NCBI GenBank assembly: GCA_964019135.1
Contig: OZ025263.1
Span: 36,310,133-36,374,132 of the forward strand
Direction of reading: 5' to 3'
DNA from: Arenicola marina
Taxonomy: Eukaryota > Annelida > Polychaeta > Arenicolidae
DNA: 64,000 nt
The notes under the pieces were generated by a model, which saw nothing but the letters and a program-made list of their open reading frames with translations, was not told the origin of the DNA and searched no databases. The position numbers and the translations under genes are program-made. Position 1 is the stretch's first letter, and every line of letters begins with the position of its first letter. This document shows positions 11,801 through 48,236 of the stretch, piece by piece.

Positions 11801-11879
11801 GAAGGGCGGGGGGTCCAGTGTATAGGGGTCTGGAAGGGCGGGGGATCCAGTGTATAGGGGTCTGGAAGGGCGCGGGTCC

Positions 11880-12120
11880 AGTGTATAGGGGCCGGGAAGG
11901 GCGGGGGGTCCTGTGTATAGGGGTCTGGAAGGGCGGGGGTCCAGTGTATAGGGGCCGGGAAGGGCGGGGGGTCCTGTGTATAGGGGTCTGGAAGGGCGGG
12001 GGTCCAGTGTATAGGGGCCGGGAAGGGCGGGGGGTCCTGTGTATAGGGGTCTGGAAGGGCGGGGGTCCAGTGTATAGGGGCCGGGAAGGGCGGGGGATCC
12101 AGTGTATAGGGGGCTGGAAG
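11880..12120 (+). repeat. 63-bp dimer subrepeat within the array
   Basis: Here a 32-bp ccggg unit ending in tcctgtg alternates with a 31-bp tctgg unit several times, giving a 63-bp dimer. Since 63 is divisible by 3, the plus strand stays open for 107 codons (11818-12141) with a 21-residue period. The same cassette recurs at 23560, 28596, 31446, 34488, 42493 and 45626, and shortened at 38569. It is one of the markers used to trace the higher-order repeat. Confidence 0.8.
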
Positions 12121-15100
12121 GGCGGGGGGTCCAGTGTATAGGAGTCTGGAAGGGCGGAGGATCCAGTGTATAGGGGTCTGGAAGGGCGGGGGTCCAGTGT
12201 ATAGGGGCCGGGAAGGGCGGGGGGTCCTGTGTATAGGGGTCTGGAAGGGCCGGGGTCCAGTGTATAGGGGCCGGGAAGGGCGGGGGGTCCTGTGTATAGG
12301 GTTCTGGAAGGGCGGGGGTCCAGTGTATGGGGGTCTGGAAGGGCGGGGGATCCAGTGTATGGGGGTCTGGAAGGGCGGGGGGTCCAGTGTATAGGGGTCT
12401 GGAAGGGCGGGGGGTCCAGTGTATAGGGGTCTGGAAGGGCGGGGGGTCCAGTGTATAGGGGTCTGGAAGGGCGGGGGGTCCAGTGTATAGGGGCCGGGAA
12501 GGGCGGGGGGTCCAGTGTATAGGGGTCTGGAAGGGCGGAGAGTCCAGCGTATAGGGGTCTGGAAGGGCGGGGGATCCAGTGTATAGGGGTCTGAAAGGGC
12601 GGGGGGTCTAGTGTATAAGGGTCTGGAAGGGCGGGGGGTCCAGTGTATAGGGGCCGGGAAGGGCGGGGGGTCCTGTGTATAGGGGTCTGGAAGGGCGGGG
12701 GGTCCAGTGTATAGGGGTCTGGAAGGGCGGGGGATCCAGTGTATAGGGGTCTGGAAGGGCGGGGGGTCCAGTGTATAGGGGTCTGGAAGGGCGGGGGGTT
12801 CAGTGTATAGGGGTCTGAAAGGGCGGGGGGTCTAGTGTATAGGGGTCTGGAAGGGCGGGGGTCCAGTGTATAGGGGTCGGGAAGGGCGGGGGGTCCAGTG
12901 TATAGGGGTCTGGAAGGGCGGGGGGTCCAGTGTATAGGGTTCTGGAAGGGCGGGGGGTCCAGTGTATAGGGGTCTGGAAGGGCGGGGGGTCCAGTGTATA
13001 GGGGTCTGAAAGGGCGGGGGGTCTAGTGTATAGGGGTCTGGAAGGGCGGGGGTCCAGTGTATAGGGGTCTGGAAGGGCGGGGGATCCAGTGTATAGAGGT
13101 CTGGAAGGGCGGGGGTCCAGTGTATAGGGGTCTGGAATGGCGGGGGATCCAGTGTATAGGGGTCTGGAAGGGCGGGGGTCCAGTGTATAGGGGCCGGGAA
13201 GGGCGGGGGGGGTCCTGTGTATAGGGGTCTGGAAGGGCGGAGGTCCAGTGTATAGGGGCCGGGAAGGGCGGGGGATCCAGTGTATAGGGGGCTGGAAGGG
13301 CGGGCGGTCCTGTGTATAGGGGTCTGGAAGGGCGGGGGATCCAGTGTATAGGGGTCTGGAAGGGCGGGGGGTCCAGTGTATAGGGGTCTGGAAGGGCGGG
13401 GGGTCCAGTGTATAGGGGTCTGGAAGGGCGGAGAGTCCAGTGTGTAGGGGCCGGGAAGGGCGGGGGGTCCTGTGTATAGGGGTCTGGAAGGGCGGGGGTC
13501 CAGGGTATAGGGGCCGGGAAGGGCGGGGGATCCAGTGTATAGGGGTCTGGAAGGGCGGGCGGTCCTGTGTATAGGGGTCTGGAAGGGCGGGGAGTCCAGT
13601 GTATAGGGGTCTGGAAGGGCGGGGGGTCCAGTGTATAGGGGTCTGGAAGGGCGGGGGATCCAGTGCATAGGGGGCTGGAAGGGCGGGGGGTCCAGTGTAT
13701 AGGGGTCTGGAAGGGCGGGGGATCCAGTGTATAGGGGGCTGGAAGGGCGGGGGGTCTAGTGTATAGGGGTCTGGAAGGGCGGGGGATCCAGTGTATAGGG
13801 GTCTGGAAAGGCGGAGGTCCAGTGTATAGGGGCCGGGAAGGGCGGGGTGTCCAGTGTATAGGGGTCTGGAAGGGCGGGGGTCCAGTGTATGGGGGCCGGG
13901 AAGGGCGGGGGGTCCAGTGTATAGGGGTCTGGAAGGGCGGGGGTCCAGTGTATAGGGGCCGGGAAGGGCGGGGTGTCCAGTGTATAGGGGTCTGGAAGGG
14001 CGGGGGTCCAGTGTATAGGGGCCGGGAAGGGCGGGGCTCCAGTGTATAGGGGCCGGGAAGGGCGGGGGATCCAGTGTATAGGGGTCTGGAAGGGCGGGGA
14101 ATCCAGTGTATAGGGGTCTGGAAGGGCGGGGGATCCAGTGTATAGGGGGCTGGAAGGGCGGGGGATCCAGTGTATAGGGGTCTGGAAGGGCGGGGGTCCA
14201 GTGTATAGGGGCCGGGAAGGGCGGGTGGTCCAGTGTGTAGGGGTCTGGAAGGGCGGGGGTCCAGTGTATAGGGGCCGGGAAGGGCGGGGGTCCAGTGTAT
14301 AGGGGTCTGGAAGGGCGGGGGATCCAGTGTATAGGGGTCTGGAAGGGCGGGGGTCCAGTGTATAGGGGCCGGGAAGGGCGGGGGGTCCAGTGTATAGGGG
14401 TCTGGAAGGGCGGGGGTCCAGTGTATAGGGGCCGGGAAGGGCGGGGGATCCAGTGTATAGGGGTCTGGAAGGGCGGGGGTCCAGTGTATAGGGGTCTGGA
14501 AGGGCGGGGGGTCCAGTGTATAGGGGTCTGGAAGGGCAGTGGGGCCAGTGTATAGGGGTCTGGAAGGGCGGGGGATCCAGTGTATAGGGGCCGGGAAGGG
14601 CGGGGGTCCAGTGTATAGGGGCCGGGAAGGGCGGGGGATCCAGTGTATAGGGGGCTGGAAGGGCGGGGGGTCCAGTGTATAGGGGCCGGGAAGGGCGGGG
14701 GTCCAGTGTATAGGGGCCGGGAAGGGCGGGGGATCCAGTGTATAGGGGGCTGGAAGGGCGGGGGATCCAGTGTATAGGGGTCTGGAAGGGCGGGGGTCCA
14801 GTGTATAGGGGCCGGGAAGGGCGGGGGGTCCAGTGTATAGGGGTCTGGAAGGGCGGGGGGTCTAGTGTATAGGGGTCTGGAAGGGCGGGGGTCCACTGTA
14901 TAGGGGCCGGGAAGGGCGGGGGGTCCAGTGTATAGGGGTCTGGAAGGGCGGGCGGTCCTGTGTATAGGGGTCTGGAAGGGCGGGGTGTCCAGTGTATAGG
15001 GGGCTGGAAGGGCGGGGGATCCAGTGTATAGGGGGCTGGAAGGGAGGGGGGTCCAGTGTATAGGGGGCTGGAAGGGCGGGGAATCCAGTGTATAGGGGTC

Positions 15101-16000
15101 TGGAAGGGCGGGGTTCCAGTGTATAGGGGTTTTGAAGGGCGGGGGGTCTAGTGTATAGGGGTCTGGAAGGGCGGGGGTCCAGTGTATAGGGGGCTGGAAG
15201 GGCGGGGGATCCAGTGTATAGGGGGCTGGAAGGGCGGGGGGTCCAGTGTATAGGGGCCGGGAAGGGCGGGGGATCCAGTTTATAGGGGGCTGGAAGGGCG
15301 GGGGATCCAGTGTATAGGGGGCTGGAAGGGCGGGGGATCCAGTGTATAGGGGTCTGGAAGGGCGGAGGTCCAGTGTATAGGGGTCTGGAAGGGCGGGGGA
15401 TCCAGTGTATAGGGGGCTGGAAGGGCGGGGGATCCAGTGTATAGGGGGCTGGAAGGGCGGGGGGTCCAGTGTATAGGGGCCGGGAAGGGCGGGGGATCCA
15501 GTTTATAGGGGGCTGGAAGGGCGGGGGATCCAGTGTATAGGGGGCTGGAAGGGCGGGGGATCCAGTGTATAGGGGTCTGGAAGGGCGGAGGTCCAGTGTA
15601 TAGGGGTCTGGAAGGGCGGGGGATCCAGTGTATAGGGGGCTGGAAGGGCGGGGGATCCAGTGTATAGGGGGCTGGAAGGGCGGGGTTCCAGTGTATAGGG
15701 GTCTGGAAGGGCGGGGGGTCTAGTGTATAGGGGTCTGGAAGGGCGGGGGTCCAGTGTATAGGGGGCTGGAAGGGCGGGGGATCCAGTGTATAGGGGTCTG
15801 GAAGGGCGGGGGGTCCAGTGTATAGGGGTCTGGAAGGGCGGGGGATCCAGTGTATAGGGGTCTGGAAGGGCGGGGGATCCAGTGTATAGGGGCCGGGAAG
15901 GGCGGGGGGTCCAGTTTATAGGGGGCTGGAAGGGCGGGGGATCCAGTGTATAGGGGGCTGGAAGGGCGGGGGATCCAGTGTATAGGGGGCTGGAAGGGCG

Positions 16001-17872
16001 GGGGATCCAGTGTATAGGGGTCTGGAAGGGCGGGGGTCCAGTGTATAGGGGGCTGGAAGGGCGGGGGATCCAGTGTATAGGGGCCGGGAAGGGCGGGGAT
16101 CCAGTGTATAGGGGCCGGGAAGGGCGGGGGTCCAGTGTATAGGGGGCTGGAAGGGCGGGGGGTCCAGTGTATAGGGGTCTGGAAGGGCCGGGGGTCCAGT
16201 GTATAGGGGTCTGGAAGGGCGGGGGGTCTAGTGTATAGGGGTCTGGAAGGGCGGGGGGTCCAGTGTATAGGGGTCTGGAAGGGCGGGGGATCCAGTGTAT
16301 GGGGGGCTGGAAGGGCGGGGGGTCCAGTGTATAGGGGTCTGGAAGGGCGGGGGATCCAGTGTATAGGGGTCGGGAAGGGCGGGGGATCCAGTGTATAGGG
16401 GGCTGGAAGGGCGGGGGGTCCAGTGTATAGGGGCCGGGAAGGGCGGGGGATCCAGTTTATAGGGGGCTGGAAGGGCGGGGGATCCAGTGTATAGGGGGCT
16501 GGAAGGGCGGGGGATCCAGTGTATAGGGGTCTGGAAGGGCGGAGGTCCAGTGTATAGGGGGCTGCAAGGGCGGGGGGTCCAGTGTATAGGGGTCTGGAAG
16601 GGCGGGGGATCCAGTGTATAGGGGTCTGGAAGGGCGGGGGATCCAGTGTATAGGGGGCTGGAAGGGCGGGGGATCCAGTGTATAGGGGTCTGGAAGGGCG
16701 GGGGATCCAGTGTATAGGGGTCTGGAAGGGCGGGGGATCCAGTGTATAGGGGTCTGGAAGGGCGGGGGATCCAGTGTATAGGGGGCTGGAACGGCGGGGG
16801 ATCCAGTGTATAAGGGTCTGGAAGGGCGGGGGGTCCAGTGTATAGGGGTCTGGAAGGGCGGGGGGTCCAGTGTATAGGGGCCGGGAAGGGCGGGGGGTCC
16901 AGTGTATAGGGGTCTGGAAGGGCGGGGGATCCAGTGTATAGGGGTCTGGAAGGGCGGGGGTCCAGTGTATAGGGTTCTGGAAGGGCGGGGGGTCCAGTGT
17001 ATAGGGGTCTGGAAGGCCGGGGTCCAGTGTATAGGGGTCTGGAAGGGCGGGGGTCCAGTGTATAGGGGCCGGGAAGGGCGGGGGGTCCAGTGTATAAGGG
17101 TCTGGAAGGGCGGGGGATCCAGTGTATAGGGGTCTGGAAGGGCGGGGGGTCCAGTGTATAGGGGTCTGGAAGGGCGGGGGATCCAGTGTATAGGGGCCGG
17201 GAAGGGCGGGGGATCCAGTGTATAGGGGGCTGGAAGGGCGGGGGGTCCAGTGTATAGGGGTCTGGAAGGGCGGGAGATCCAGTGTATAGGGGTCTGGAAG
17301 GGCGGGGGATCCAGTGTATAAGGGTCTGGAAGGGCGGTGGTCCAGTGTATAGGGGTCTGGAAGGGCGGGGGATCCGGTGTATAGGGGTCTGGAAGGGCGG
17401 GGGATCCAGTGTATAGGGGTCTGGAAGGGCGGGGGTCCAGTGTATAGGGGTCTGGAAGGGCGGGGGGTCCAGTGTATAGGGGTCTGGAAGGGCGGGGAGT
17501 CCAGTGTATAGGGGTCTGGAAGGGCGGGGGTCCAGTGTATAGGGGTCTGGAAGGGCGGGGGATCCGGTGTATAGGGGTCTGGAAGGGCGGGGGTCCAGTG
17601 TATAGGGGTCTGGAAGGGCGGGGATCCAGTGTATAGGGGTCTGGAAGGGCGGGGGATCCAGTGTACAGGGGTCTGGAAGGGCGGGGGTCCAGTGTATAGG
17701 GGTCTGGAAGGGCGGGGGGTCCAGTGTATAGGGGTCTGGAAGGGCGGGGGGTCCAGTGTATAGGGGCCGGGAAGGGCGGGGGGTCCTGTGTATAGGGGTC
17801 TGGAAGGGCGGGGGTCCAGTGTATAGGGGCCGGGAAGGGCGGGGATCCAGTGTATAGGGGGCTGGAAGGGCG
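16001..17872 (+). repeat. 1,872-bp tandem duplication, copy 1
   Basis: This stretch matches 17873-19744 at an exact offset of 1,872 bp, judged from many marker variants: ggaacggcgg at 16788 and 18660, ggaaggccgg at 17011 and 18883, and identical 75-codon frames at 16902 and 18774. One clear difference is A at 17275 against G at 19147. The copies part company where the left reads gggggatcc and the right ggggggtcc. Confidence 0.85.
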
Positions 17873-19744
17873 GGGGATCCAGTGTATAGGGGTCTGGAAG
17901 GGCGGGGGTCCAGTGTATAGGGGGCTGGAAGGGCGGGGGATCCAGTGTATAGGGGCCGGGAAGGGCGGGGATCCAGTGTATAGGGGCCGGGAAGGGCGGG
18001 GGTCCAGTGTATAGGGGGCTGGAAGGGCGGGGGGTCCAGTGTATAGGGGTCTGGAAGGGCCGGGGGTCCAGTGTATAGGGGTCTGGAAGGGCGGGGGGTC
18101 TAGTGTATAGGGGTCTGGAAGGGCGGGGGGTCCAGTGTATAGGGGTCTGGAAGGGCGGGGGATCCAGTGTATGGGGGGCTGGAAGGGCGGGGGGTCCAGT
18201 GTATAGGGGTCTGGAAGGGCGGGGGATCCAGTGTATAGGGGTCGGGAAGGGCGGGGGATCCAGTGTATAGGGGGCTGGAAGGGCGGGGGGTCCAGTGTAT
18301 AGGGGCCGGGAAGGGCGGGGGATCCAGTTTATAGGGGGCTGGAAGGGCGGGGGATCCAGTGTATAGGGGGCTGGAAGGGCGGGGGATCCAGTGTATAGGG
18401 GTCTGGAAGGGCGGAGGTCCAGTGTATAGGGGGCTGCAAGGGCGGGGGGTCCAGTGTATAGGGGTCTGGAAGGGCGGGGGATCCAGTGTATAGGGGTCTG
18501 GAAGGGCGGGGGATCCAGTGTATAGGGGGCTGGAAGGGCGGGGGATCCAGTGTATAGGGGTCTGGAAGGGCGGGGGATCCAGTGTATAGGGGTCTGGAAG
18601 GGCGGGGGATCCAGTGTATAGGGGTCTGGAAGGGCGGGGGATCCAGTGTATAGGGGGCTGGAACGGCGGGGGATCCAGTGTATAAGGGTCTGGAAGGGCG
18701 GGGGGTCCAGTGTATAGGGGTCTGGAAGGGCGGGGGGTCCAGTGTATAGGGGCCGGGAAGGGCGGGGGGTCCAGTGTATAGGGGTCTGGAAGGGCGGGGG
18801 ATCCAGTGTATAGGGGTCTGGAAGGGCGGGGGTCCAGTGTATAGGGTTCTGGAAGGGCGGGGGGTCCAGTGTATAGGGGTCTGGAAGGCCGGGGTCCAGT
18901 GTATAGGGGTCTGGAAGGGCGGGGGTCCAGTGTATAGGGGCCGGGAAGGGCGGGGGGTCCAGTGTATAAGGGTCTGGAAGGGCGGGGGATCCAGTGTATA
19001 GGGGTCTGGAAGGGCGGGGGGTCCAGTGTATAGGGGTCTGGAAGGGCGGGGGATCCAGTGTATAGGGGCCGGGAAGGGCGGGGGATCCAGTGTATAGGGG
19101 GCTGGAAGGGCGGGGGGTCCAGTGTATAGGGGTCTGGAAGGGCGGGGGATCCAGTGTATAGGGGTCTGGAAGGGCGGGGGATCCAGTGTATAAGGGTCTG
19201 GAAGGGCGGTGGTCCAGTGTATAGGGGTCTGGAAGGGCGGGGGATCCGGTGTATAGGGGTCTGGAAGGGCGGGGGATCCAGTGTATAGGGGTCTGGAAGG
19301 GCGGGGGTCCAGTGTATAGGGGTCTGGAAGGGCGGGGGGTCCAGTGTATAGGGGTCTGGAAGGGCGGGGAGTCCAGTGTATAGGGGTCTGGAAGGGCGGG
19401 GGTCCAGTGTATAGGGGTCTGGAAGGGCGGGGGATCCGGTGTATAGGGGTCTGGAAGGGCGGGGGTCCAGTGTATAGGGGTCTGGAAGGGCGGGGATCCA
19501 GTGTATAGGGGTCTGGAAGGGCGGGGGATCCAGTGTACAGGGGTCTGGAAGGGCGGGGGTCCAGTGTATAGGGGTCTGGAAGGGCGGGGGGTCCAGTGTA
19601 TAGGGGTCTGGAAGGGCGGGGGGTCCAGTGTATAGGGGCCGGGAAGGGCGGGGGGTCCTGTGTATAGGGGTCTGGAAGGGCGGGGGTCCAGTGTATAGGG
19701 GCCGGGAAGGGCGGGGATCCAGTGTATAGGGGGCTGGAAGGGCG
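17873..19744 (+). repeat. 1,872-bp tandem duplication, copy 2
   Basis: Second copy of the 59-unit block. The two copies make up most of the longest stop-free minus frame of the window (15720-20195), which therefore contains an internal repeat of about 624 residues. The exact edges are uncertain by about one unit because the flanking units are alike. Confidence 0.85.
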
Positions 19745-22248
19745 GGGGGTCCAGTGTATAGGGGTCTGGAAGGGCGGGGGATCCGGTGTATAGGGGTCTG
19801 GAAGGGCGGGGGTCCAGTGTATAGGGGTCTGGAAGGGCGGGGATCCTGTGTATAGGGGTCTGGAAGGGCGGGGGTCCAGTGTATAGGGGCCGGGAAGGGC
19901 GGGGATCCAGTGTATAGGGGGCTGGAAGGGCGGGGGGTCCAGTGTATAGGGGTCTGGAAGGGCGGGGGATCCAGTGTATAGGGGTCTGGAAGGGCGGGGG
20001 TCCAGTGTATAGGGGCCGGGAAGGGCGGGGGATCCAGTGTATAGGGGGCTGGAAGGGCGGGGGATCCAGTGTATAGGGGTCTGGAAGGGCGGGGGTCCAG
20101 TGTATAGGGGCCGGGAAGGGCGGGGGGTCCAGTGTATAGGGGTCTGGAAGGGCGGGGGGTCTAGTGTATAGGGGTCTGGAAGGGCGGGGGTCCACTGTAT
20201 AGGGGCCGGGAAGGGCGGGGGGTCCAGTGTATAGGGGTCTGGAAGGGCGGGCGGTCCTGTGTATAGGGGTCTGGAAGGGCGGGGTGTCCAGTGTATAGGG
20301 GTCGGGAAGGGCGGGGGTCCAGTGTATAGGGGTCTGGAAGGGCGGGGGGTCTAGTGTATAGGGGGCAGGAAGGGCGGGGGATCCAGTGTATAGGGGGCTG
20401 GAAGGGCGGGGGATCCAGTGTATAGGGGGCTGGAAGGGCGGGGGGTCCAGTGTATAGGGGTCTGGAAGGGCGGGGGGTCCAGTGTATAGGGGTCTGGAAG
20501 GGCGGGGGATCCAGTGTATAGGGGGCTGGAAGGGCGGGGAATCCAGTGTATAGGGGTCTGGAAGGGCGGGGTTCCAGTGTATAGGGGTCTGGAAGGGCGG
20601 GGGGTCTAGTGTATAGGGGTCTGGAAGGGCGGGGGTCCAGTGTATAGGGGGCTGGAAGGGCGGGGGATCCAGTGTATAGGGGGCTGGAAGGGCGGGGGGT
20701 CCAGTGTATAGGGGCCGGGAAGGGCGGGGGATCCAGTTTATAGGGGGCTGGAAGGGCGGGGGATCCAGTGTATAGGGGGCTGGAAGGGCGGGGGATCCAG
20801 TGTATAGGGGTCTGGAAGGGCGGAGGTCCAGTGTATAGGGGTCTGGAAGGGCGGGGGATCCAGTGTATAGGGGGCTGGAAGGGCGGGGGATCCAGTGTAT
20901 AGGGGGCTGGAAGGGCGGGGGGTCCAGTGTATAGGGGCCGGGAAGGGCGGGGGATCCAGTTTATAGGGGGCTGGAAGGGCGGGGGATCCAGTGTATAGGG
21001 GGCTGGAAGGGCGGGGGATCCAGTGTATAGGGGTCTGGAAGGGCGGAGGTCCAGTGTATAGGGGTCTGGAAGGGCGGGGGATCCAGTGTATAGGGGGCTG
21101 GAAGGGCGGGGGATCCAGTGTATAGGGGGCTGGAAGGGCGGGGTTCCAGTGTATAGGGGTCTGGAAGGGCGGGGGGTCTAGTGTATAGGGGTCTGGAAGG
21201 GCGGGGGTCCAGTGTATAGGGGGCTGGAAGGGCGGGGGATCCAGTGTATAGGGGTCTGGAAGGGCGGGGGGTCCAGTGTATAGGGGTCTGGAAGGGCGGG
21301 GGATCCAGTGTATAGGGGTCTGGAAGGGCGGGGGATCCAGTGTATAGGGGCCGGGAAGGGCGGGGGGTCCAGTTTATAGGGGGCTGGAAGGGCGGGGGAT
21401 CCAGTGTATAGGGGGCTGGAAGGGCGGGGGATCCAGTGTATAGGGGGCTGGAAGGGCGGGGGATCCAGTGTATAGGGGTCTGGAAGGGCGGGGGTCCAGT
21501 GTATAGGGGGCTGGAAGGGCGGGGGATCCAGTGTATAGGGGCCGGGAAGGGCGGGGATCCAGTGTATAGGGGCCGGGAAGGGCGGGGGTCCAGTGTATAG
21601 GGGGCTGGAAGGGCGGGGGGTCCAGTGTATAGGGGTCTGGAAGGGCCGGGGGTCCAGTGTATAGGGGTCTGGAAGGGCGGGGGGTCTAGTGTATAGGGGT
21701 CTGGAAGGGCGGGGGGTCCAGTGTATAGGGCTCTGGAAGGGCGGGGGATCCAGTGTATGGGGGGCTGGAAGGGCGGGGGGTCCAGTGTATAGGGGTCTGG
21801 AAGGGCGGGGGATCCAGTGTATAGGGGTCGGGAAGGGCGGGGGATCCAGTGTATAGGGGGCTGGAAGGGCGGGGGGTCCAGTGTATAGGGGCCGGGAAGG
21901 GCGGGGGATCCAGTTTATAGGGGGCTGGAAGGGCGGGGGATCCAGTGTATAGGGGGCTGGAAGGGCGGGGGATCCAGTGTATAGGGGTCTGGAAGGGCGG
22001 AGGTCCAGTGTATAGGGGGCTGCAAGGGCGGGGGGTCCAGTGTATAGGGGTCTGGAAGGGCGGGGGATCCAGTGTATAGGGGTCTGGAAGGGCGGGGGAT
22101 CCAGTGTATAGGGGGCTGGAAGGGCGGGGGATCCAGTGTATAGGGGTCTGGAAGGGCGGGGGATCCAGTGTATAGGGGTCTGGAAGGGCGGGGGATCCAG
22201 TGTATAGGGGTCTGGAAGGGCGGGGGATCCAGTGTATAGGGGGCTGGA

Positions 22249-25200
22249 ACGGCGGGGGATCCAGTGTATAAGGGTCTGGAAGGGCGGGGGGTCCAGTGTA
22301 TAGGGGTCTGGAAGGGCGGGGGGTCCAGTGTATAGGGGCCGGGAAGGGCGGGGGGTCCAGTGTATAGGGGTCTGGAAGGGCGGGGGATCCAGTGTATAGG
22401 GGTCTGGAAGGGCGGGGGGTCCAGTGTATAGGGTTCTGGAAGGGCGGGGGGTCCAGTGTATAGGGGTCTGGAAGGCCGGGGTCCAGTGTATAGGGGTCTG
22501 GAAGGGCGGGGGTCCAGTGTATAGGGGCCGGGAAGGGCGGGGGGTCCAGTGTATAAGGGTCTGGAAGGGCGGGGGATCCAGTGTATAGGGGTCTGGAAGG
22601 GCGGGGGGTCCAGTGTATAGGGGTCTGGAAGGGCGGGGGATCCAGTGTATAGGGGCCGGGAAGGGCGGGGGATCCAGTGTATAGGGGGCTGGAAGGGCGG
22701 GGGGTCCAGTGTATAGGGGTCTGGAAGGGCGGGGGATCCAGTGTATAGGGGTCTGGAAGGGCGGGGGATCCAGTGTATAAGGGTCTGGAAGGGCGGTGGT
22801 CCAGTGTATAGGGGTCTGGAAGGGCGGGGGATCCGGTGTATAGGGGTCTGGAAGGGCGGGGGATCCAGTGTATAGGGGTCTGGAAGGGCGGGGGTCCAGT
22901 GTATAGGGGTCTGGAAGGGCGGGGGGTCCAGTGTATAGGGGTCTGGAAGGGCGGGGAGTCCAGTGTATAGGGGTCTGGAAGGGCGGGGGTCCAGTGTATA
23001 GGGGTCTGGAAGGGCGGGGGTCCAGTGTATAGGGGTCTGGAAGGGCGGGGGATCCGGTGTATAGGGGTCTGGAAGGGCGGGGGTCCAGTGTATAGGGGTC
23101 TGGAAGGGCGGGGATCCAGTGTATAGGGGTCTGGAAGGGCGGGGGATCCAGTGTACAGGGGTCTGGAAGGGCGGGGGTCCAGTGTATAGGGGTCTGGAAG
23201 GGCGGGGGGTCCAGTGTATAGGGGTCTGGAAGGGCGGGGGGTCCAGTGTATAGGGGCCGGGAAGGGCGGGGGGTCCTGTGTATAGGGGTCTGGAAGGGCG
23301 GGGGTCCAGTGTATAGGGGCCGGGAAGGGCGGGGATCCAGTGTATAGGGGGCTGGAAGGGCGGGGGGTCCAGTGTATAGGGGTCTGGAAGGGCGGGGGAT
23401 CCGGTGTATAGGGGTCTGGAAGGGCGGGGGTCCAGTGTATAGGGGTCTGGAAGGGCGGGGATCCTGTGTATAGGGGTCTGGAAGGGCGGGGGTCCAGTGT
23501 ATAGGGGCCGGGAAGGGCGGGGATCCAGTGTATAGGGGGCTGGAAGGGCGGGGGGTCCAGTGTATAGGGGTCTGGAAGGGCGGGGGATCCAGTGTATAGG
23601 GGTCTGGAAGGGCGGGGGTCCAGTGTATAGGGGCCGGGAAGGGCGGGGGGTCCTGTGTATAGGGGTCTGGAAGGGCGGGGGTCCAGTGTATAGGGGCCGG
23701 GAAGGGCGGGGGGTCCTGTGTATAGGGGTCTGGAAGGGCGGGGGTCCAGTGTATAGGGGCCGGGAAGGGCGGGGGGTCCTGTGTATAGGGGTCTGGAAGG
23801 GCGGGGGTCCAGTGTATAGGGGCCGGGAAGGGCGGGGGATCCAGTGTATAGGGGGCTGGAAGGGCGGGGGGTCCAGTGTATAGGAGTCTGGAAGGGCGGG
23901 GGATCCAGTGTATAGGGGTCTGGAAGGGCGGTGGTCCAGTGTATAGGGGCCGGGAAGGGCGGGGGGTCCTGTGTATAGGGGCCGGGAAGGGCGGGGGATC
24001 CAGTGTATAGGGGTCTGGAAGGGCGGGGAATCCAGTGTATAGGGGTCTGGAAGGGCGGGGGATCCAGTGTATAGGGGGCTGGAAGGGCGGGGGATCCAGT
24101 GTATAGGGGTCTGGAAGGGCGGGGGTCCAGTGTATAGGGGCCGGGAAGGGCGGGTGGTCCAGTGTGTAGGGGTCTGGAAGGGCGGGGGTCCAGTGTATAG
24201 GGGCCGGGAAGGGCGGGGGTCCAGTGTATAGGGGTCTGGAAGGGCGGGGGATCCAGTGTATAGGGGTCTGGAAGGGCGGGGGTCCAGTGTATAGGGGCCG
24301 GGAAGGGCGGGGGGTCCAGTGTATAGGGGTCTGGAAGGGCGGGGGTCCAGTGTATAGGGGCCGGGAAGGGCGGGGGATCCAGTGCATAGGGGTCTGGAAG
24401 GGCGGGGGTAGAGTGTATAGGGGTCTGGAAGGGCGGGGGGTCCAGTGTATAGGGGTCTGGAAGAGCAGTGGGGCCAGTGTATAGGGGTCTGGAAGGGCGG
24501 GGGATCCAGTGTATAGGGGCCGGGAAGGGCGGGGGTCCAGTGTATAGGGGCCGGGAAGGGCGGGGGATCCAGTGTATAGGGGGCTGGAAGGGCGGGGGGT
24601 CCAGTGTATAGGGGCCGGGAAGGGCGGGGGTCCAGTGTATAGGGGCCGGGAAGGGCGGGGGATCCAGTGTATAGGGGGCTGGAAGGGCGGGGGATCCAGT
24701 GTATAGGGGTCTGGAAGGGCGGGGGTCCAGTGTATAGGGGCCGGGAAGGGCGGGGGGTCCAGTGTATAGGGGTCTGGAAGGGCGGGGGGTCTAGTGTATA
24801 GGGGTCTGGAAGGGCGGGGGTCCAGTGTATAGGGGCCGGGAAGGGCGGGGGGTCCAGTGTATAGGGGTCTGGAAGGGCGGGCGGTCCTGTGTATAGGGGT
24901 CTGGAAGGGCGGGGTGTCCAGTGTATAGGGGTCGGGAAGGGCGGGGGTCCAGTGTATAGGGGTCTGGAAGGGCGGGGGGTCTAGTGTATAGGGGTCTGGA
25001 AGGGCGGGGGTCCAGTGTATAGGGGTCGGGAGGGGCCGGGGGTCCTGTGTATAGGGGTCTGGAAGGGCGGGGGGTCCAGTGTATAGGGGTCTGGAAGGGC
25101 GGGGGGTCTAGTGTGTAGGGGTCTGGAAGGGCGGGGGGTCCACTGTATAGGGTCTGGAAGGGCGGGGGTCTAGTGTATAGGGGTCTGGAAGGGCGGGGGG

Positions 25201-37200: not shown

Positions 37201-40200
37201 GGATCCAGTGTATAGGGGTCTGGAAGGGCGGGGAATCCAGTGTATAGGGGGCTGGAACGGCGGGGGATCCAGTGTATAAGGGTCTGGAAGGGCGGGGGGT
37301 CCAGTGTATAGGGGTCTGGAAGGGCGGGGGGTCCAGTGTATAGGGGCCGGGAAGGGCGGGGGGTCCAGTGTATAGGGGTCTGGAAGGGCGGGGGATCCAG
37401 TGTATAGGGGTCTGGAAGGGCGGGGGGTCCAGTGTATAGGGTTCTGGAAGGGCGGGGGGTCCAGTGTATAGGGGTCTGGAAGGCCGGGGTCCAGTGTATA
37501 GGGGTCTGGAAGGGCGGGGGTCCAGTGTATAGGGGCCGGGAAGGGCGGGGGGTCCAGTGTATAAGGGTCTGGAAGGGCGGGGGATCCAGTGTATAGGGGT
37601 CTGGAAGGGCGGGGGGTCCAGTGTATAGGGGTCTGGAAGGGCGGGGGATCCAGTGTATAGGGGCCGGGAAGGGCGGGGGATCCAGTGTATAGGGGGCTGG
37701 AAGGGCGGGGGGTCCAGTGTATAGGGGTCTGGAAGGGCGGGGGATCCAGTGTATAGGGGTCTGGAAGGGCGGGGGATCCAGTGTATAAGGGTCTGGAAGG
37801 GCGGTGGTCCAGTGTATAGGGGTCTGGAAGGGCGGGGGATCCGGTGTATAGGGGTCTGGAAGGGCGGGGGATCCAGTGTATAGGGGTCTGGAAGGGCGGG
37901 GGGTCCAGTGTATAGGGGTCTGGAAGGGCGGGGGGTCCAGTGTATAGGGGTCTGGAAGGGCGGGGAGTCCAGTGTATAGGGGTCTGGAAGGGCGGGGGTC
38001 CAGTGTATAGGGGTCTGGAAGGGCGGGGGTCCAGTGTATAGGGGTCTGGAAGGGCGGGGGATCCGGTGTATAGGGGTCTGGAAGGGCGGGGGTCCAGTGT
38101 ATAGGGGTCTGGAAGGGCGGGGATCCAGTGTATAGGGGTCTGGAAGGGCGGGGGATCCAGTGTACAGGGGTCTGGAAGGGCGGGGGTCCAGTGTATAGGG
38201 GTCTGGAAGGGCGGGGGGTCCAGTGTATAGGGGTCTGGAAGGGCGGGGGGTCCAGTGTATAGGGGCCGGGAAGGGCGGGGGGTCCTGTGTATAGGGGTCT
38301 GGAAGGGCGGGGGTCCAGTGTATAGGGGCCGGGAAGGGCGGGGATCCAGTGTATAGGGGGCTGGAAGGGCGGGGGGTCCAGTGTATAGGGGTCTGGAAGG
38401 GCGGGGGATCCGGTGTATAGGGGTCTGGAAGGGCGGGGGTCCAGTGTATAGGGGTCTGGAAGGGCGGGGATCCTGTGTATAGGGGTCTGGAAGGGCGGGG
38501 GTCCAGTGTATAGGGGCCGGGAAGGGCGGGGATCCAGTGTATAGGGGGCTGGAAGGGCGGGGGGTCCAGTGTATAGGGGTCTGGAAGGGCGGGGGATCCA
38601 GTGTATAGGGGTCTGGAAGGGCGGGGGTCCAGTGTATAGGGGCCGGGAAGGGCGGGGGGTCCTGTGTATAGGGGTCTGGAAGGGCGGGGGTCCAGTGTAT
38701 AGGGGCCGGGAAGGGCGGGGGGTCCTGTGTATAGGGGTCTGGAAGGGCGGGGGTCCAGTGTATAGGGGTCTGGAAGGGCGGTGGTCCAGTGTATAGGGGC
38801 CGGGAAGGGCGGGGGGTCCTGTGTATAGGGGCCGGGAAGGGCGGGGGATCCAGTGTATAGGGGTCTGGAAGGGCGGGGAATCCAGTGTATAGGGGTCTGG
38901 AAGGGCGGGGGATCCCGTGTATAGGGGGCTGGAAGGGCGGGGGATCCAGTGTATAGGGGTCTGGAAGGGCGGGGGTCCAGTGTATAGGGGCCGGGAAGGG
39001 CGGGTGGTCCAGTGTGTAGGGGTCTGGAAGGGCGGGGGTCCAGTGTATAGGGGCCGGGAAGGGCGGGGGTCCAGTGTATAGGGGTCTGGAAGGGCGGGGG
39101 ATCCAGTGTATAGGGGTCTGGAAGGGCGGGGGTCCAGTGTATAGGGGCCGGGAAGGGCGGGGGGTCCAGTGTATAGGGGTCTGGAAGGGCGGGGGTCCAG
39201 TGTATAGGGGCCGGGAAGGGCGGGGGATCCAGTGTATAGGGGTCTGGAAGGGCGGGGGTCCAGTGTATAGGGGTCTGGAAGGGCGGGGGGTCCAGTGTAT
39301 AGGGGTCTGGAAGGGCGGGGGTCCAGTGTATAGGGGTCGGGAAGGGCGGGGGTTCCAGTGTATAGGGGTCTGGAAGGGCGGGGGGTCCAGTGTATAGGGG
39401 TCTGGAAGGGCGGGAGGGACCAGTGTATAGGGGTCTGGAAGGGCGGGGGGTCCAGTGTATAGGGGTCTGGAAGGGCGGAGAGTCCAGTGTATAGGGGTCT
39501 GGAAGGGCGGGGGGTCCAGTGTATAGGGGTCTGGAAGGGGGGGGGGTCCAGTGTATAGGGGTCTGGAAGGGCGGTGGGGCCAGTGTATAGGGGTCTGGAA
39601 GGGCGGGGAGTCCAGTGTATAGGGGTCTGGAAGGGCGGGGGGTCCAGTGTATAGAGGTTCTGGAAGGGCGGGGGGTCCAGTGTATAGGGGTCTGGAAGGG
39701 CGGGGGAGGGATCCAGTGTATAGGGGTCTGGAAGGGCGGGGGGTCCAGTGTATAGGGGTCTGGAAGGGCGGGGGATCCAGTGTATAGGGGTCTGGATGGG
39801 CGGGGGGGGGGATCAAGTGTATAGGGGTCGGGAAGGGCGGGGGGTCCAGTGTATAGGGGTCTGGAAGGGCGGGGGGGGGATCCAGTGTATAGGGGTCTGG
39901 AAGGGCGGGGGATCCAGTGTATAGGGGTCTGGAAGGGCGGGGGTTCCAGTGTATAGGGGTCTGGAAGGGCGGGGGTCCAGTGTATAGGGGTCTGGAAGGG
40001 CGGGGGGTCCAGTGTATAGGGGTCTGGAAGGGCGGCGGGGGGGGATCCAGTGTATAGGGGTCTGGAAGGGTGGGGGGTCCAGTGTATAGGGGTCTGGAAG
40101 GGCGGGGGGTCTAGTGTATAGGGGTCTGGAAGGGCGGGGGTCCAGTGTATAGGGGGCTGGAAGGGCGGGGGATCCAGTGTATAGGGGTCTGGAAGGGCGG

Positions 40201-43200
40201 GGGGTCCAGTGTATAGGGGTCTGGAAGGGCGGGGGATCCAGTGTATAGGGGTCTGGAAGGGCGGGGGATCCAGTGTATAGGGGCCGGGAAGGGCGGGGGG
40301 TCCAGTTTATAGGGGGCTGGAAGGGCGGGGGATCCAGTGTATAGGGGGCTGGAAGGGCGGGGGATCCAGTGTATAGGGGGCTGGAAGGGCGGGGGATCCA
40401 GTGTATAGGGGTCTGGAAGGGCAGGGGTCCAGTGTATAGGGGGCTGGAAGGGCGGGGGATCCAGTGTATAGGGGCCGGGAAGGGCGGGGATCCAGTGTAT
40501 AGGGGCCGGGAAGGGCGGGGGTCCAGTGTATAGGGGGCTGGAAGGGCGGGGGGTCCAGTGTATAGGGGTCTGGAAGGGCCGGGGGTCCAGTGTATAGGGG
40601 TCTGGAAGGGCGGGGGGTCTAGTGTATAGGGGTCTGGAAGGGCGGGGGGTCCAGTGTATAGGGGTCTGGAAGGGCGGGGGATCCAGTGTATGGGGGGCTG
40701 GAAGGGCGGGGGGTCCAGTGTATAGGGGTCTGGAAGGGCGGGGGATCCAGTGTATAGGGGTCGGGAAGGGCGGGGGATCCAGTGTATAGGGGGCTGGAAG
40801 GGCGGGGGGTCCAGTGTATAGGGGCCGGGAAGGGCGGGGGATCCAGTTTATAGGGGGCTGGAAGGGCGGGGGATCCAGTGTATAGGGGGCTGGAAGGGCG
40901 GGGGATCCAGTGTATAGGGGTCTGGAAGGGCGGAGGTCCAGTGTATAGGGGGCTGCAAGGGCGGGGGGTCCAGTGTATAGGGGTCTGGAAGGGCGGGGGA
41001 TCCAGTGTATAGGGGTCTGGAAGGGCGGGGGATCCAGTGTATAGGGGGCTGGAAGGGCGGGGGATCCAGTGTATAGGGGTCTGGAAGGGCGGGGGATCCA
41101 GTGTATAGGGGTCTGGAAGGGCGGGGGATCCAGTGTATAGGGGTCTGGAAGGGCGGGGAATCCAGTGTATAGGGGGCTGGAACGGCGGGGGATCCAGTGT
41201 ATAAGGGTCTGGAAGGGCGGGGGGTCCAGTGTATAGGGGTCTGGAAGGGCGGGGGGTCCAGTGTATAGGGGCCGGGAAGGGCGGGGGGTCCAGTGTATAG
41301 GGGTCTGGAAGGGCGGGGGATCCAGTGTATAGGGGTCTGGAAGGGCGGGGGGTCCAGTGTATAGGGTTCTGGAAGGGCGGGGGGTCAAGTGTATAGGGGT
41401 CTGGAAGGCCGGGGTCCAGTGTATAGGGGTCTGGAAGGGCGGGGGTCCAGTGTATAGGGGCCGGGAAGGGCGGGGGGTCCAGTGTATAAGGGTCTGGAAG
41501 GGCGGGGGATCCAGTGTATAGGGGTCTGGAAGGGCGGGGGGTCCAGTGTATAGGGGTCTGGAAGGGCGGGGGATCCAGTGTATAGGGGCCGGGAAGGGCG
41601 GGGGATCCAGTGTATAGGGGGCTGGAAGGGCGGGGGGTCCAGTGTATAGGGGTCTGGAAGGGCGGGGGATCCAGTGTATAGGGGTCTGGAAGGGCGGGGG
41701 ATCCAGTGTATAAGGGTCTGGAAGGGCGGTGGTCCAGTGTATAGGGGTCTGGAAGGGCGGGGGATCCGGTGTATAGGGGTCTGGAAGGGCGGGGGATCCA
41801 GTGTATAGGGGTCTGGAAGGGCGGGGGTCCAGTGTATAGGGGTCTGGAAGGGCGGGGGGTCCAGTGTATAGGGGTCTGGAAGGGCGGGGAGTCCAGTGTA
41901 TAGGGGTCTGGAAGGGCGGGGGTCCAGTGTATAGGGGTCTGGAAGGGCGGGGGTCCAGTGTATAGGGGTCTGGAAGGGCGGGGGATCCGGTGTATAGGGG
42001 TCTGGAAGGGCGGGGGTCCAGTGTATAGGGGTCTGGAAGGGCGGGGATCCAGTGTATAGGGGTCTGGAAGGGCGGGGGATCCAGTGTACAGGGGTCTGGA
42101 AGGGCGGGGGTCCAGTGTATAGGGGTCTGGAAGGGCGGGGGGTCCAGTGTATAGGGGTCTGGAAGGGCGGGGGGTCCAGTGTATAGGGGCCGGGAAGGGC
42201 GGGGGGTCCTGTGTATAGGGGTCTGGAAGGGCGGGGGTCCAGTGTATAGGGGCCGGGAAGGGCGGGGATCCAGTGTATAGGGGGCTGGAAGGGCGGGGGG
42301 TCCAGTGTATAGGGGTCTGGAAGGGCGGGGGATCCGGTGTATAGGGGTCTGGAAGGGCGGGGGTCCAGTGTATAGGGGTCTGGAAGGGCGGGGATCCTGT
42401 GTGTAGGGGTCTGGAAGGGCGGGGGTCCAGTGTATAGGGGCCGGGAAGGGCGGGGATCCAGTGTATAGGGGGCTGGAAGGGCGGGGGGTCCAGTGTATAG
42501 GGGTCTGGAAGGGCGGGGGATCCAGTGTATAGGGGTCTGGAAGGGCGGGGGTCCAGTGTATAGGGGCCGGGAAGGGCGGGGGGTCCTGTGTATAGGGGTC
42601 TGGAAGGGCGGGGGTCCAGTGTATAGGGGCCGGGAAGGGCGGGGGGTCCTGTGTATAGGGGTCTGGAAGGGCGGGGGTCCAGTGTATAGGGGCCGGGAAG
42701 GGCGGGGGGTCCTGTGTATAGGGGTCTGGAAGGGCGGGGGTCCAGTGTATAGGGGCCGGGAAGGGCGGGGGATCCAGTGTATAGGGGGCTGGAAGGGCGG
42801 GGGGTCCAGTGTGTAGGAGTCTGGAAGGGCGGGGGATCCAGTGTATAGGGGTCTGGAAGGGCGGTGGTCCAGTGTATAGGGGCCGGGAAGGGCGGGGGGT
42901 CCTGTGTATAGGGGCCGGGAAGGGCGGGGGATCCAGTGTATAGGGGTCTGGAAGGGCGGGGAATCCAGTGTATAGGGGTCTGGAAGGGCGGGGGATCCAG
43001 TGTATAGGGGGCTGGAAGGGCGGGGGATCCAGTGTATAGGGGTCTGGAAGGGCGGGGGTCCAGTGTATAGGGGCCGGGAAGGGCGGGTGGTCCAGTGTGT
43101 AGGGGTCTGGAAGGGCGGGGGTCCAGTGTATAGGGGCCGGGAAGGGCGGGGGTCCAGTGTATAGGGGTCTGGAAGGGCGGGGGATCCAGTGTATAGGGGT

Positions 43201-46200
43201 CTGGAAGGGCGGGGGTCCAGTGTATAGGGGCCGGGAAGGGCGGGGGGTCCAGTGTATAGGGGTCTGGAAGGGCGGGGGTCCAGTGTATAGGGGCCGGGAA
43301 GGGCGGGGGATCCAGTGTATAGGGGTCTGGAAGGGCGGGGGTCCAGTGTATAGGGGTCTGGAAGGGCGGGGGGTCCAGTGTATAGGGGTCTGGAAGAGCA
43401 GTGGGGCCAGTGTATAGGGGTCTGGAAGGGCGGGGGATCCAGTGTATAGGGGCCGGGAAGGGCGGGGGTCCAGTGTATAGGGGCCGGGAAGGGCGGGGGA
43501 TCCAGTGTATAGGGGGCTGGAAGGGCGGGGGGTCCAGTGTATAGGGGCCGGGAAGGGCGGGGGTCCAGTGTATAGGGGCCGGGAAGGGCGGGGGATCCAG
43601 TGTATAGGGGGCTGGAAGGGCGGGGGATCAAGTGTATAGGGGTCTGGAAGGGCGGGGGTCCAGTGTATAGGGGCCGGGAAGGGCGGGGGGTCCAGTGTAT
43701 AGGGGTCTGGAAGGGCGGGGGGTCTAGTGTATAGGGGTCTGGAAGGGATGGGGTCCAGTGTATAGGGGCCGGGAAGGGCGGGGGGTCCAGTGTATAGGGG
43801 TCTGGAAGGGCGGGCGGTCCTGTGTATAGGGGTCTGGAAGGGCGGGGTGTCCAGTGTATAGGGGTCGGGAAGGGCGGGGGTCCAGTGTATAGGGGTCTGG
43901 AAGGGCGGGGGGTCTAGTGTATAGGGGTCTGGAAGGGCGGGGGTCCAGTGTATAGGGGTCGGGAGGGGCCGGGGGTCCTGTGTATAGGGGTCTGGAAGGG
44001 CGGGGGGTCCAGTGTATAGGGGTCTGGAAGGGCGGGGGGTCTAGTGTGTAGGGGTCTGGAAGGGCGGGGGGTCCACTGTATAGGGTCTGGAAGGGCGGGG
44101 GTCTAGTGTATAGGGGTCTGGAAGGGCGGGGGGTCCAATGTAGAAAGGTCTGGAAGGGCGGGGGGTCCAATGTATAGAGGTCTGCAAGGGCGGGGGGTCC
44201 AGTGTATAGGGGTCTGAAAGGGCGGGGGGTCCAGTGTATAGGGGTCGGGAAGGGCGGGGGTCCAGTGTATAGGGGTCTGGAAGGGCGGGGGGTCCAGTGT
44301 ATAGGGGTCTGGAAGGGCGGGGGATCCAGTGTATAGGGGTCTGGAAGGGCGGGGGATCCAGTGTATAGGGGTCTGGAAGGGCGGGGGGTCCGGTGTAAAG
44401 GGGTCTGCAAGGGCGGGGGGTCCAGTGTATAGGGGTCTGGAAGGGCGGGGGATCCAGTGTATAGGGGTCTGGAAGGGCGGGGGGTCCAGTGTATAGGGTT
44501 CTGGAAGGGCGGGGGGTCCAGTGTATAGGGGTCTGGAAGGCCGGGGTCCAGTGTATAGGGGTCTGGAAGGGCGGGGGTCCAGTGTATAGGGGCCGGGAAG
44601 GGCGGGGGGTCCAGTGTATAAGGGTCTGGAAGGGCGGGGGATCCAGTGTATAGGGGTCTGGAAGGGCGGGGGGTCCAGTGTATAGGGGTCTGGAAGGGCG
44701 GGGGATCCAGTGTATAGGGGCCGGGAAGGGCGGGGGATCCAGTGTATAGGGGGCTGGAAGGGCGGGGGCTCCAGTGTATAGGGGTCTGGAAGGGCGGGGG
44801 ATCCAGTGTATAGGGGTCTGGAAGGGCGGGGGATCCAGTGTATAAGGGTCTGGAAGGGTGGGGGATCCGGTGTATAGGGGTCTGGAAGGGCGGGGGGTCC
44901 GGTGTATAGGGGTCTGGAAGGGCGGGGGATCCAGTGTATAGGGGTCTGGAAGGGCGGGGGGTCCAGTGTATAGGGCTCTGGAAGGGCGGGGAGTCCAGTG
45001 TATAGGGGTCTGGAAGGGCGGGGGTCCAGTGTATAGGGGTCTGGAAGGGCGGGGGTCCAGTGTATAGGGGTCTGGAAGGGCGGGGGATCCGGTGTATAGG
45101 GGTCTGGAAGGGCGGGGGTCCAGTGTATAGGGGTCTGGAAGGGCGGGGATCCAGTGTATAGGGGTCTGGAAGGGCGGGGGATCCAGTGTATAGGGGTCTG
45201 GAAGGGCGGGGGTCCAGTGTATAGGGGTCTGGAAGGGCGGGGGTCCAGTGTATAGGGGTCTGGAAGGGCGGGGGGTCCAGTGTATAGGGGTCTGGAAGGG
45301 CGGGGGGTCCAGTGTATAGGGGCCGGGAAGGGCGGGGGGTCCTGTGTATAGGGGTCTGGAAGGGCGGGGCTCCAGTGTATAGGGGCCGGGAAGGGCGGGG
45401 ATCCAGTGTATAGGGGGCTGGAAGGGCGGGGGGTCCAGTGTATAGGGGTCTGGAAGGGCGGGGGATCCGGTGTATAGGGGTCTGGAAGGGCGGGGGTCCA
45501 GTGTATAGGGGTCTGGAAGGGCGGGGATCCTGTGTATAGGGGTCTGGAAGGGCGGGGGTCCAGTGTATAGGGGCCGGGAAGGGCGGGGATCCAGTGTATA
45601 GGGGGCTGGAAGGGCGGGGGGTCCAGTGTATAGGGGTCTGGAAGGGCGGGGGATCCAGTGTATAGGGGTCTGGAAGGGCGGGGGTCCAGTGTATAGGGGC
45701 CGGGAAGGGCGGGGGGTCCTGTGTATAGGGGTCTGGAAGGGCGGGGGTCCAGTGTATAGGGGCCGGGAAGGGCGGGGGGTCCTGTGTATAGGGGTCTGGA
45801 AGGGCGGGGGTCCAGTGTATAGGGGCCGGGAAGGGCGGGGGGTCCTGTGTATAGGGGTCTGGAAGGGCGGGGGTCCAGTGTATAGGGGCCGGGAAGGGCG
45901 GGGGATCCAGTGTATAGGGGGCTGGAAGGGCGGGGGGTCCAGTGTATAGGAGTCTGGAAGGGCGGGGGATCCAGTGTATAGGGGTCTGGAAGGGCGGTGG
46001 TCCAGTGTATAGGGGCCGGGAAGGGCGGGGGGTCCTGTGTATAGGGGCCGGGAAGGGCGGGGGATCCAGTGTATAGGGGTCTGGAAGGGCGGGAAATCCA
46101 GTGTATAGGGGTCTGGAAGGGCGGGGGATCCAGTGTATAGGGGGCTGGAAGGGCGGGGGATCCAGTGTATAGGGGTCTGGAAGGGCGGGGGTCCAGTGTA

Positions 46201-48236
46201 TAGGGGCCGGGAAGGGCGGGTGGTCCAGGGTGTAGGGGTCTGGAAGGGCGGGGGTCCAGTGTATAGGGGCCGGGAAGGGCGGGGGTCCAGTGTATAGGGG
46301 TCTGGAAGGGCGGGGGATCCAGTGTATAGGGGTCTGGAAGGGCGGGGGTCCAGTGTATAGGGGCCGGGAAGGGCGGGGGGTCCAGTGTATAGGGGTCTGG
46401 AAGGGCGGGGGTCCAGTGTATAGGGGCCGGGAAGGGCGGGGGATCCAGTGTATAGGGGTCTGGAAGGGCGGGGCTCCAGTGTATAGGGGTCTGGAAGGGC
46501 GGGGGGTCCAGTGTATAGGGGTCTGGAAGAGCAGTGGGGCCAGTGTATAGGGGTCTGGAAGGGCGGGGGATCCAGTGTATAGGGGCCGGGAAGGGCGGGG
46601 GTCCAGTGTATAGGGGCCGGGAAGGGCGGGGGATCCAGTGTATAGGGGGCTGGAAGGGCGGGGGGTCCAGTGTATAGGGGCCGGGAAGGGCGGGGGTCCA
46701 GTGTATAGGGGCCGGGAAGGGCGGGGGATCCAGTGTATAGGGGGCTGGAAGGGCGGGGGATCCAGTGTATAGGGGTCTGGAAGGGCGGGGGTCCAGTGTA
46801 TAGGGGCCGGGAAGGGCGGGGGGTCCAGTGTATAGGGGTCTGGAAGGGCGGGGGGTCTAGTGTATAGGGGTCTGGAAGGGCGGGGGTCCAGTGTATAGGG
46901 GCCGGGAAGGGCGGGGGGTCCAGTGTATAGGGGTCTGGAAGGGCGGGCGGTCCTGTGTATAGGGGTCTGGAAGGGCGGGGTGTCCAGTGTATAGGGGTCG
47001 GGAAGGGCGGGGGTCCAGTGTATAGGGGTCTGGAAGGGCGGGGGGTCTAGTGTATAGGGGTCTGGAAGGGCGGGGGTCCAGTGTATAGGGGTCGGGAGGG
47101 GCCGGGGGTCCTGTGCATAGGGGTCTGGAAGGGCGGGGGGTCCAGTGTATAGGGGTCTGGAAGGGCGGGGGGTCTAGTGTGTAGGGGTCTGGAAGGGCGG
47201 GGGGTCCACTGTATAGGGTCTGGAAGGGCGGGGGTCTAGTGTATAGGGGTCTGGAAGGGCGGGGGGTCCAATGTAGAAGGGTCTGGAAGGGCGGGGGGTC
47301 CAATGTATAGAGGTCTGCAAGGGCGGGGGGTCCAGTGTATAGGGGTCTGAAAGGGCGGGGGGTCCAGTGTATAGGGGTCGGGAAGGGCGGGGGTCCAGTG
47401 TATAGGGGTCTGGAAGGGCGGGGGGTCCGGTGTAAAGGGGTCTGCAAGGGCGGGGGGGTCCAGTGTATAGGGGTCTGGAAGGGCGGGGGTCCAGTGTATA
47501 GGGGTCGGGAAGGGCGGGGGGTCCAGTGTATAGGGGTCTGGAAGGGCGGGGGGTCCAGTGTATAGGGTTCTGGAAGGGCGGGGGGTCCAGTGTATAGGGG
47601 TCTGGAAGGGCGGGAGGTCCAGTGTATAGGGGTCTGGAAGGGCGGGGGGTCCAGTGTATAGGGGTCTGGAAGGGCGGGGGTCCAGTGTATAGGGGTCTGG
47701 AAGGGCGGGGGTCCAGTGTATAGGGGTCTGGAAGGGCGGGGGTCCAGTGTATAGGGGTCGGGAAGGGCGGGGGTTCCAGTGTATAGGGGTCTGGAAGGGC
47801 GGGGGGTCCAGTGTATAGGGGTCTGGAAGGGCGGGAGGGACCAGTGTATAGGGGTCTGGAAGGGCGGGGGGTCCAGTGTATAGGGGTCTGGAAGGGCGGA
47901 GAGTCCAGTGTATAGGGGTCTGGAAGGGCGGGGGGTCCAGTGTATAGGGGTCTGGAAGGGGGGGGAGTCCAGTGTATAGGGGTCTGGAAGGGCGGTGGGG
48001 CCAGTGTATAGGGGTCTGGAAGGGCGGGGAGTCCAGTGTATAGGGGTCTGGAAGGGCGGGGGGTCCAGTGTATAGAGGTTCTGGAAGGGCGGGGGGTCCA
48101 GTGTATAGGGGTCTGGAAGGGCGGGGGAGGGATCCAGTGTATAGGGGTCTGGAAGGGCGGGGGGTCCAGTGTATAGGGGTCTGGAAGGGCGGGGGATCCA
48201 GTGTATAGGGGTCTGGAAGGGCGGGGGGGGGATCAA
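22249..48236 (+). repeat. Higher-order repeat domain (about 3.0-5.3 kb periods)
   Basis: Four marker variants recur in a fixed order. D (ggaacggcgg): 22249, 27534, 34217, 37255, 41175. B (63-bp dimer cassette): 23560, 28596, 31446, 34488, 38569, 42493, 45626. P (plus-strand frame cassette, often ending cagtggggcc): 24224, 29260, 32110, 35152, 39074, 43157, 46290. C (gatcaagtg): near 26169, 32852, 35893, 39816, 48236. B-to-P is 664 bp in six of seven copies (505 in one). C-to-D is 1,359-1,365 bp in four copies. D-to-B is about 1,311-1,318 bp in three copies. P-to-C is either about 742 or about 1,945 bp. The full period is about 5.3 kb, with shortened versions. Confidence 0.85.
31263..37300 (+). 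repeat. 3.04-kb tandem higher-order copies
   Basis: Markers at 31446, 32110, 32852 and 34217 recur at 34488, 35152, 35893 and 37255 with offsets of 3,042, 3,042, 3,041 and 3,038 bp. The junction lies near 34303, where the same series of ccggg and tcctgtg units restarts. This is a direct tandem duplication of about 96 units; the few bases of offset change reflect small G-run or unit-length differences. Confidence 0.82.

Follow-up and report, generated by a model that had tools for sequence, protein, structure and literature searches.

The 64,000-nucleotide window analysed here, from contig OZ025263.1 of the annelid Arenicola marina, is occupied for most of its length by a single G-rich minisatellite array with a 32-bp unit (consensus TATAGGGGTCTGGAAGGGCGGGGGGTCCAGTG; positions 6437–62018, forward strand), delimited with Tandem Repeats Finder and a wraparound alignment. 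Tandem Repeats Finder reports 1,746 copies with 91% matches over 55.6 kb. The wraparound alignment divides the whole array into about 1,747 units (1,205 of 32 bp, 463 of 31 bp and 79 others), which fall into 187 distinct variants. Every unit measures 30–38 bp, save one 3-base fragment that closes the array. The 79 units of other lengths are mainly G-run or small insertion/deletion variants, judging by the 20 commonest forms inspected, and no out-of-register junction was seen in the unit lengths or among these forms.

Head-to-tail units within roughly 10–100 bp, together with internal variants, place the array among the minisatellites. Its length lies beyond the mean range of about 0.5–30 kb given in the review PMC8122249; this range being typical and descriptive, and no strict definition, we keep the class.

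The array contains block copies that stay in register with the units, are nearly identical and in four cases directly adjoin one another. We consider it quite probable that the array, as one very long G-rich minisatellite, expands and is rearranged through in-register duplication and deletion of blocks, by homologous recombination between misaligned copies.

Copied blocks and adjacent duplications

The array was encoded as a string of unit variants, and the best ungapped run was scored at each of the 1,746 possible lags. A total of 93 block matches, spread over 89 lags, exceed the best score of 15 first-order Markov null strings (62.9; 15 shuffled strings reached 24.2). The longest of them is also the strongest, with a score of 517 at an offset of 18,933 bp. 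Linking the 93 matches (score at least 63) places 1,493 of the 1,747 units in multi-copy homology classes. These ungapped runs superseded a gapped self-alignment, which had merged distinct blocks into a path some 40 kb long and whose Markov null reached 73. In the 30 highest-scoring block pairs, 76–100% of the units are identical, versus 5% for neighbouring units, and substitutions amount to 0 to 0.74%, plus single-base insertions and deletions; as in a higher-order repeat, the blocks resemble each other more than neighbouring units do. An earlier note on this DNA had set the limits of the block structure at 14894 and 48236, whereas the block copies extend from about 14,045 to 61,888. The main features are as follows.

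6437–14044, forward strand: left section of the array, mostly free of block copies and with many singleton variants (from homology classes)
15059–22996, forward strand: block copy of 15059–17537 to 20517–22996, offset 5,458 bp, 74 of 78 units
15981–19724, forward strand: 59-unit adjacent tandem duplication, 15981–17852 copied to 17853–19724, 58 of 59 units identical
21152–26438, forward strand: full A-B-C-D cycle, units 463–628, 166 units, 5.29 kb (from block matches and homology classes)
31227–37338, forward strand: 95-unit adjacent tandem duplication, 31227–34300 to 34269–37338, 92 of 96 units
34839–42684, forward strand: 123-unit adjacent tandem duplication, 34839–38760 to 38761–42684, 113 of 123 units
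40085–44267, forward strand: long-range copy of 21152–25334, offset 18,933 bp, 122 of 132 units, with 13 substitutions in 4,183 bp
45251–48505, forward strand: long-range copy of 23185–26438, offset 22,066 bp, 93 of 102 units
49457–53863, forward strand: block copy of 49457–51407 to 51913–53863, offset 2,456 bp, 61 of 61 units identical
53233–57717, forward strand: 70-unit adjacent tandem duplication, 53233–55506 to 55445–57717, 70 of 72 units
61295–61888, forward strand: outermost right D-block copy, the most diverged of 8 compared, with 8–11 of 18 units differing

The four blocks of 59, 70, 95 and 123 units that directly adjoin their own copies show 95–98% unit identity and a match length equal to the lag within 2 units, as tandem duplications do. 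Collapsing adjacent copies recovered these 4 events; the same procedure gave nothing in 5 shuffles and, over 5 Markov strings, a single event of 8 units. The events are nested, because collapsing one improves the match of another: once the 95-unit copy is collapsed, the 123-unit copy improves from 113 to 117 of 123 identical units, and collapsing the 59-unit duplication turns the 172-unit lag into one of 113. There is also a fifth candidate, an older one of 48 units, but with 35 of 46 units identical it lies below the identity limit of the collapse. For the remaining copies, a full history would need deletions whose order the data do not give. The block-wise amplification put forward in the earlier note is thus borne out by the adjoining copies and by the share of units in multi-copy classes, but its event size of 100–170 units is not, the cleanly adjacent events spanning 59–123 units.

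Copies this similar could also be a product of the assembly, if repeat loops had been traversed twice or the arrays of two haplotypes concatenated, in which case the near-identical blocks would be absent from the chromosome. Several copies are indeed almost identical, as at the offset of 2,456 bp, and the 95-unit copies differ by four single-G losses in G-runs, all in one copy, the middle of three, within 35861–36797. At these four sites the first copy is matched by a third, and the segment looks like a local consensus error of long-read assembly. On the other hand, substitutions are present in 28 of the 30 highest-scoring block pairs, eight sub-blocks that were compared occur in 6–15 copies each, many with differences of their own, and concatenation of haplotypes should leave one dominant offset instead of 89 lags. 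An artefact is therefore an improbable source of the blocks.

Block order and marker spacing

The blocks follow a preferred order, roughly A-B-C-D, that recurs along the array. The full cycle is found once, at 21152–26438. The stretch from 15.0 to 20.0 kb contains A-B copies that lack C-D, immediately preceded by a single C copy (14045–14994); from 31 to 40 kb the cycles have a shortened B, C or D; and beyond 48.5 kb C and D copies occur alongside some segments unique to that region, with no A or B. To the left, units 1–100 have no block copies and the next 140 have partial ones, mainly a B-like segment at 10839–12136, while the first 300 units include 46 singleton variants.

The earlier note had read this organisation as a higher-order repeat with a period of about 5.3 kb and shortened versions of 3.0–4.1 kb, based on the order and spacing of marker variants. 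The marker positions it named are present in the sequence. Marker D (the GGAACGGC unit) lies at 16788, 18660, 22246, 27532, 34216, 37254 and 41179, with an isolated copy at 6673, and marker C (the ATCAAGTG unit) at 26165, 32848, 35889, 39812, 43627, 48232, 49777, 52233 and 59246. The B sites at 23560 and 38569 and the P sites at 24224 and 39074 are identical across the 75 bases compared. The GGGGTTCCAG pair with its 572-bp spacing, at 15110 and 15682, appears again at 20568 and 21140, an offset of 5,458 bp. As predicted, the named offsets also stand out in the unit string: lags of 59, 95, 123, 166, 172 and 210 units (1,872, 3,042, 3,922, 5,287, 5,458 and 6,682 bp) have best-run scores of 250, 408, 472, 229, 314 and 211, at ranks 12, 3, 2, 15, 7 and 18, so that all six are within the best 18 of 1,746. 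Exact 150-base matches at these offsets number 734 to 2,445 pairs within 3 bp, a count taken without a null.

In a whole-array lag profile the leading lags are 594, 693, 471, 305, 95 and 123; among the named lags, 95 and 123 exceed the maximum of 50 Markov strings, but 59, 166, 172 and 210 do not. Neighbouring D markers are separated by 1,872, 3,586, 5,286, 6,684, 3,038 and 3,925 bp, leaving out the first gap of 10,115 bp from the isolated copy, and 5.3 kb occurs among them once. The note had also regarded the closing sums of its marker distances as hard to obtain by chance. Consecutive distances of ordered markers always add up, and this argument is circular and has no evidential value; only the recurrence of separate segments counts as evidence.

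The complete 166-unit cycle, which later cycles resemble with parts missing, and the block matches at the similar offsets of 5,036 and 5,458 bp are what a regular repeat of about 5.3 kb would have in its favour. Against it stand the single occurrence of the full cycle, the A-B copies without C-D on one side of it and the C and D copies without A or B on the other, the rank of lag 166 (15th) and the spacings between neighbouring markers, which range from 1.5 to 7.0 kb with the isolated D copy left out. A higher-order repeat in the usual sense, with one fixed head-to-tail period, is not supported: the array is a mosaic that combines 89 offsets with partial A-B-C-D versions. From the D spacings, the lag profile and the block matches, we reject a fixed 5.3-kb period, and a regular repeat later shortened by deletions is very improbable.

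Unit-by-unit replication slippage, common in short repeats, with a block order arising by chance, is refuted as the main process and has next to no probability here. Neighbouring units match in 5.0% of cases, where independence would give 5.8% and one slippage simulation that included no mutation gave 93%, and no unit follows itself unchanged in a run longer than 3. The units also stay in register, and the block scores reach 517, when all 15 Markov and 15 shuffled strings remain below 63.

Mechanism and comparison with known systems

Of 59 minority variants in homology classes of 4–9 copies, 42 are absent from the rest of the array. Differences between copies are thus largely private, and the copies therefore arise as blocks and then mutate. 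Singletons make up 12.4% of the outer fifth and 3.6% of the middle, an excess at the edges that is expected if the ends are copied less often. In Smith's model, as summarised in PMC8122249, out-of-register exchange turns unselected sequence repetitive; the edge excess of singletons and the strong divergence of the right-edge D copy agree with this classical picture.

We propose the following mechanism. A break or a stalled fork would arise inside the array, and homologous recombination would repair it from a misaligned array copy on the sister chromatid or the homologue. Repair by unequal exchange, or by synthesis-dependent or break-induced copying, would gain or lose tens to hundreds of units together. 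Nested events of varied size, followed by point mutation and partial deletion, would then leave ordered but irregular variant blocks with no fixed period. The evidence best supports homologous recombination between misaligned copies as the route; the one allele at hand fits unequal exchange, synthesis-dependent annealing and break-induced copying alike. We infer this route, the deletions and a triggering role for secondary structure of the G-rich strand.

The G-rich strand may promote such block recombination. G-runs are confined to one strand; the G4Hunter mean is 1.46 and 78% of the 25-nucleotide windows reach at least 1.2, as compared to 1.21 and 50% in one mononucleotide shuffle, and a relaxed G3N1-12 motif covers 78% of the array. 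The strand could act as a recombination trigger through a predicted G-quadruplex, as for the human G-rich minisatellite CEB1 in yeast. PMC2673046 describes CEB1 rearranging by Rad51/Rad52-dependent recombination in yeast without Pif1, with an instability that depends on the capacity to form G-quadruplexes and on homologous recombination.

A stronger version of this idea, which we regard as rather unlikely, is a G-quadruplex-driven locus in which forks stalled on one strand trigger directional break-induced copying of about 2–19 kb per event. An asymmetry is present: the left 7.6 kb have mostly escaped block copying, whereas on the right the copies come to within about 130 bp of the array's end. 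If true, the array would preserve, legible in its sequence, a natural record of template switching over kilobases in a repeat of short units.

Several observations weigh against block duplication and deletion by homologous recombination as a complete account. The strict G3N1-7 motif covers 16% of the array, with 419 matches versus 313 in one shuffle, and G-quadruplex formation is only predicted here. The greedy collapse unwound only the four events, stopping at 1,400 units. Among the minority variants, 17 of 59 do occur elsewhere in the array, and in 47 of 246 differing unit pairs, which share history and include insertions and deletions, both types have at least 10 copies; random single substitutions would give about 7% and 3%. 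Conversion over short tracts, or recurrent change, is therefore likely to act as well. Of five block classes, only D2 shows divergence increasing with distance (rho 0.57, p 0.001, from pairs that are not independent), and the correlation is not significant for A, B1, C2 and D1. This is not what a purely local tandem model would favour; copying over long distances, or large duplications with later deletion, is required. Finally, assembly error could still lie behind some copies, a point that weighs most for the most identical ones.

A simulation of block duplication and deletion (4 runs of a simple model with hand-chosen parameters) also differs from the array. It yields 143–201 matches, compared to 93, a coverage of 97–100%, compared to 85%, and top scores of 946–1,899, compared to 517. 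The simulated strings have fewer variants and fewer singletons than the array, and a singleton edge excess appears in 3 of the 4 runs, much weaker. The parameters or the model are incomplete.

Block copies of tandem repeats are known from other systems. Plant centromere satellites form irregular higher-order repeats, with block copies of many sizes and offsets and without one period, and differ from the array in unit length, base composition, array size and chromosomal setting. Alpha satellite has a unit of about 171 bp and arrays of megabases, unlike the present 32-bp unit and 55.6 kb with no fixed block period. In primate alpha satellite, as in the array, diverged monomers have been amplified as blocks that are more alike than neighbours (described in PMC8122249).

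The human hypervariable minisatellites CEB1 and MSY1 also resemble the array, with short variant units whose order records duplications, deletions and conversion. According to PMC2599865, MSY1 length mutants change 1–3 units of a 77-repeat allele, unlike the matched blocks of up to 132 units among 1,747 seen here. Process and class are known; in array size, block size and readable single events, the array is a good example and not a new kind.

Single events are readable because adjoining 32-bp units are unlike one another and every block contains marker variants, so that duplications can be recognised, sized and partly ordered. This makes the array a clear test case of long tandem arrays evolving by block copying rather than by unit slippage. 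It also cautions that what look like periods in arrays of this kind may be no more than the sizes of the latest duplications.

Further features of the array and its flanks

A weak two-unit alternation runs through 6437–62018: even lags exceed odd ones by 0.020 over lags 1–12, a difference as high in 0 of 1,000 shuffles and, once block copies are removed, in 21 of 1,000.

Long minus-strand open frames are numerous across 12800–62039, probably without coding meaning. A coding function was considered for these frames, which reach 1,491 amino acids, and rejected, since the consensus is stop-free in every minus-strand frame. Such frames are expected in non-coding sequence because the consensus lacks stops and the mixture of 31- and 32-bp units shifts the frame. 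A search of Rfam for an RNA element gave no match at the gathering threshold. The 24-base core of the unit had no exact match in prokaryote or viral contig collections, which probably hold few or no animal or plant genomes.

The flanks contain the following features.

1–805: 20-bp minisatellite, left flank (Tandem Repeats Finder)
1202–2205: 23-bp minisatellite, left flank, with sub-periods of 46, 69 and 115 bp (Tandem Repeats Finder)
2758–4730: 16/32-bp minisatellite, left flank, with sub-periods of 48, 80 and 112 bp (Tandem Repeats Finder)
63145–63696: reverse-transcriptase fragment, right flank (Pfam RVT_1, E value 1.8e-22)

Further along the left flank, positions 5640–5740 resemble, as judged by eye, the B-box region of a tRNA-derived short interspersed element; ARAGORN, run with the bacterial code, found no tRNA. 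The right flank had no match in phages, and its reverse-transcriptase fragment no confirmed relative in viral contigs, collections in which animal and plant genomes are probably few or absent. This flank is AT-richer, and its retrotransposon, like the cluster of minisatellites, suggests that the DNA is eukaryotic. The fragment it carries probably derives from a retrotransposon lacking long terminal repeats (non-LTR); among solved structures, R2 elements are its closest relatives by sequence (E value 2e-4), and stops follow downstream.

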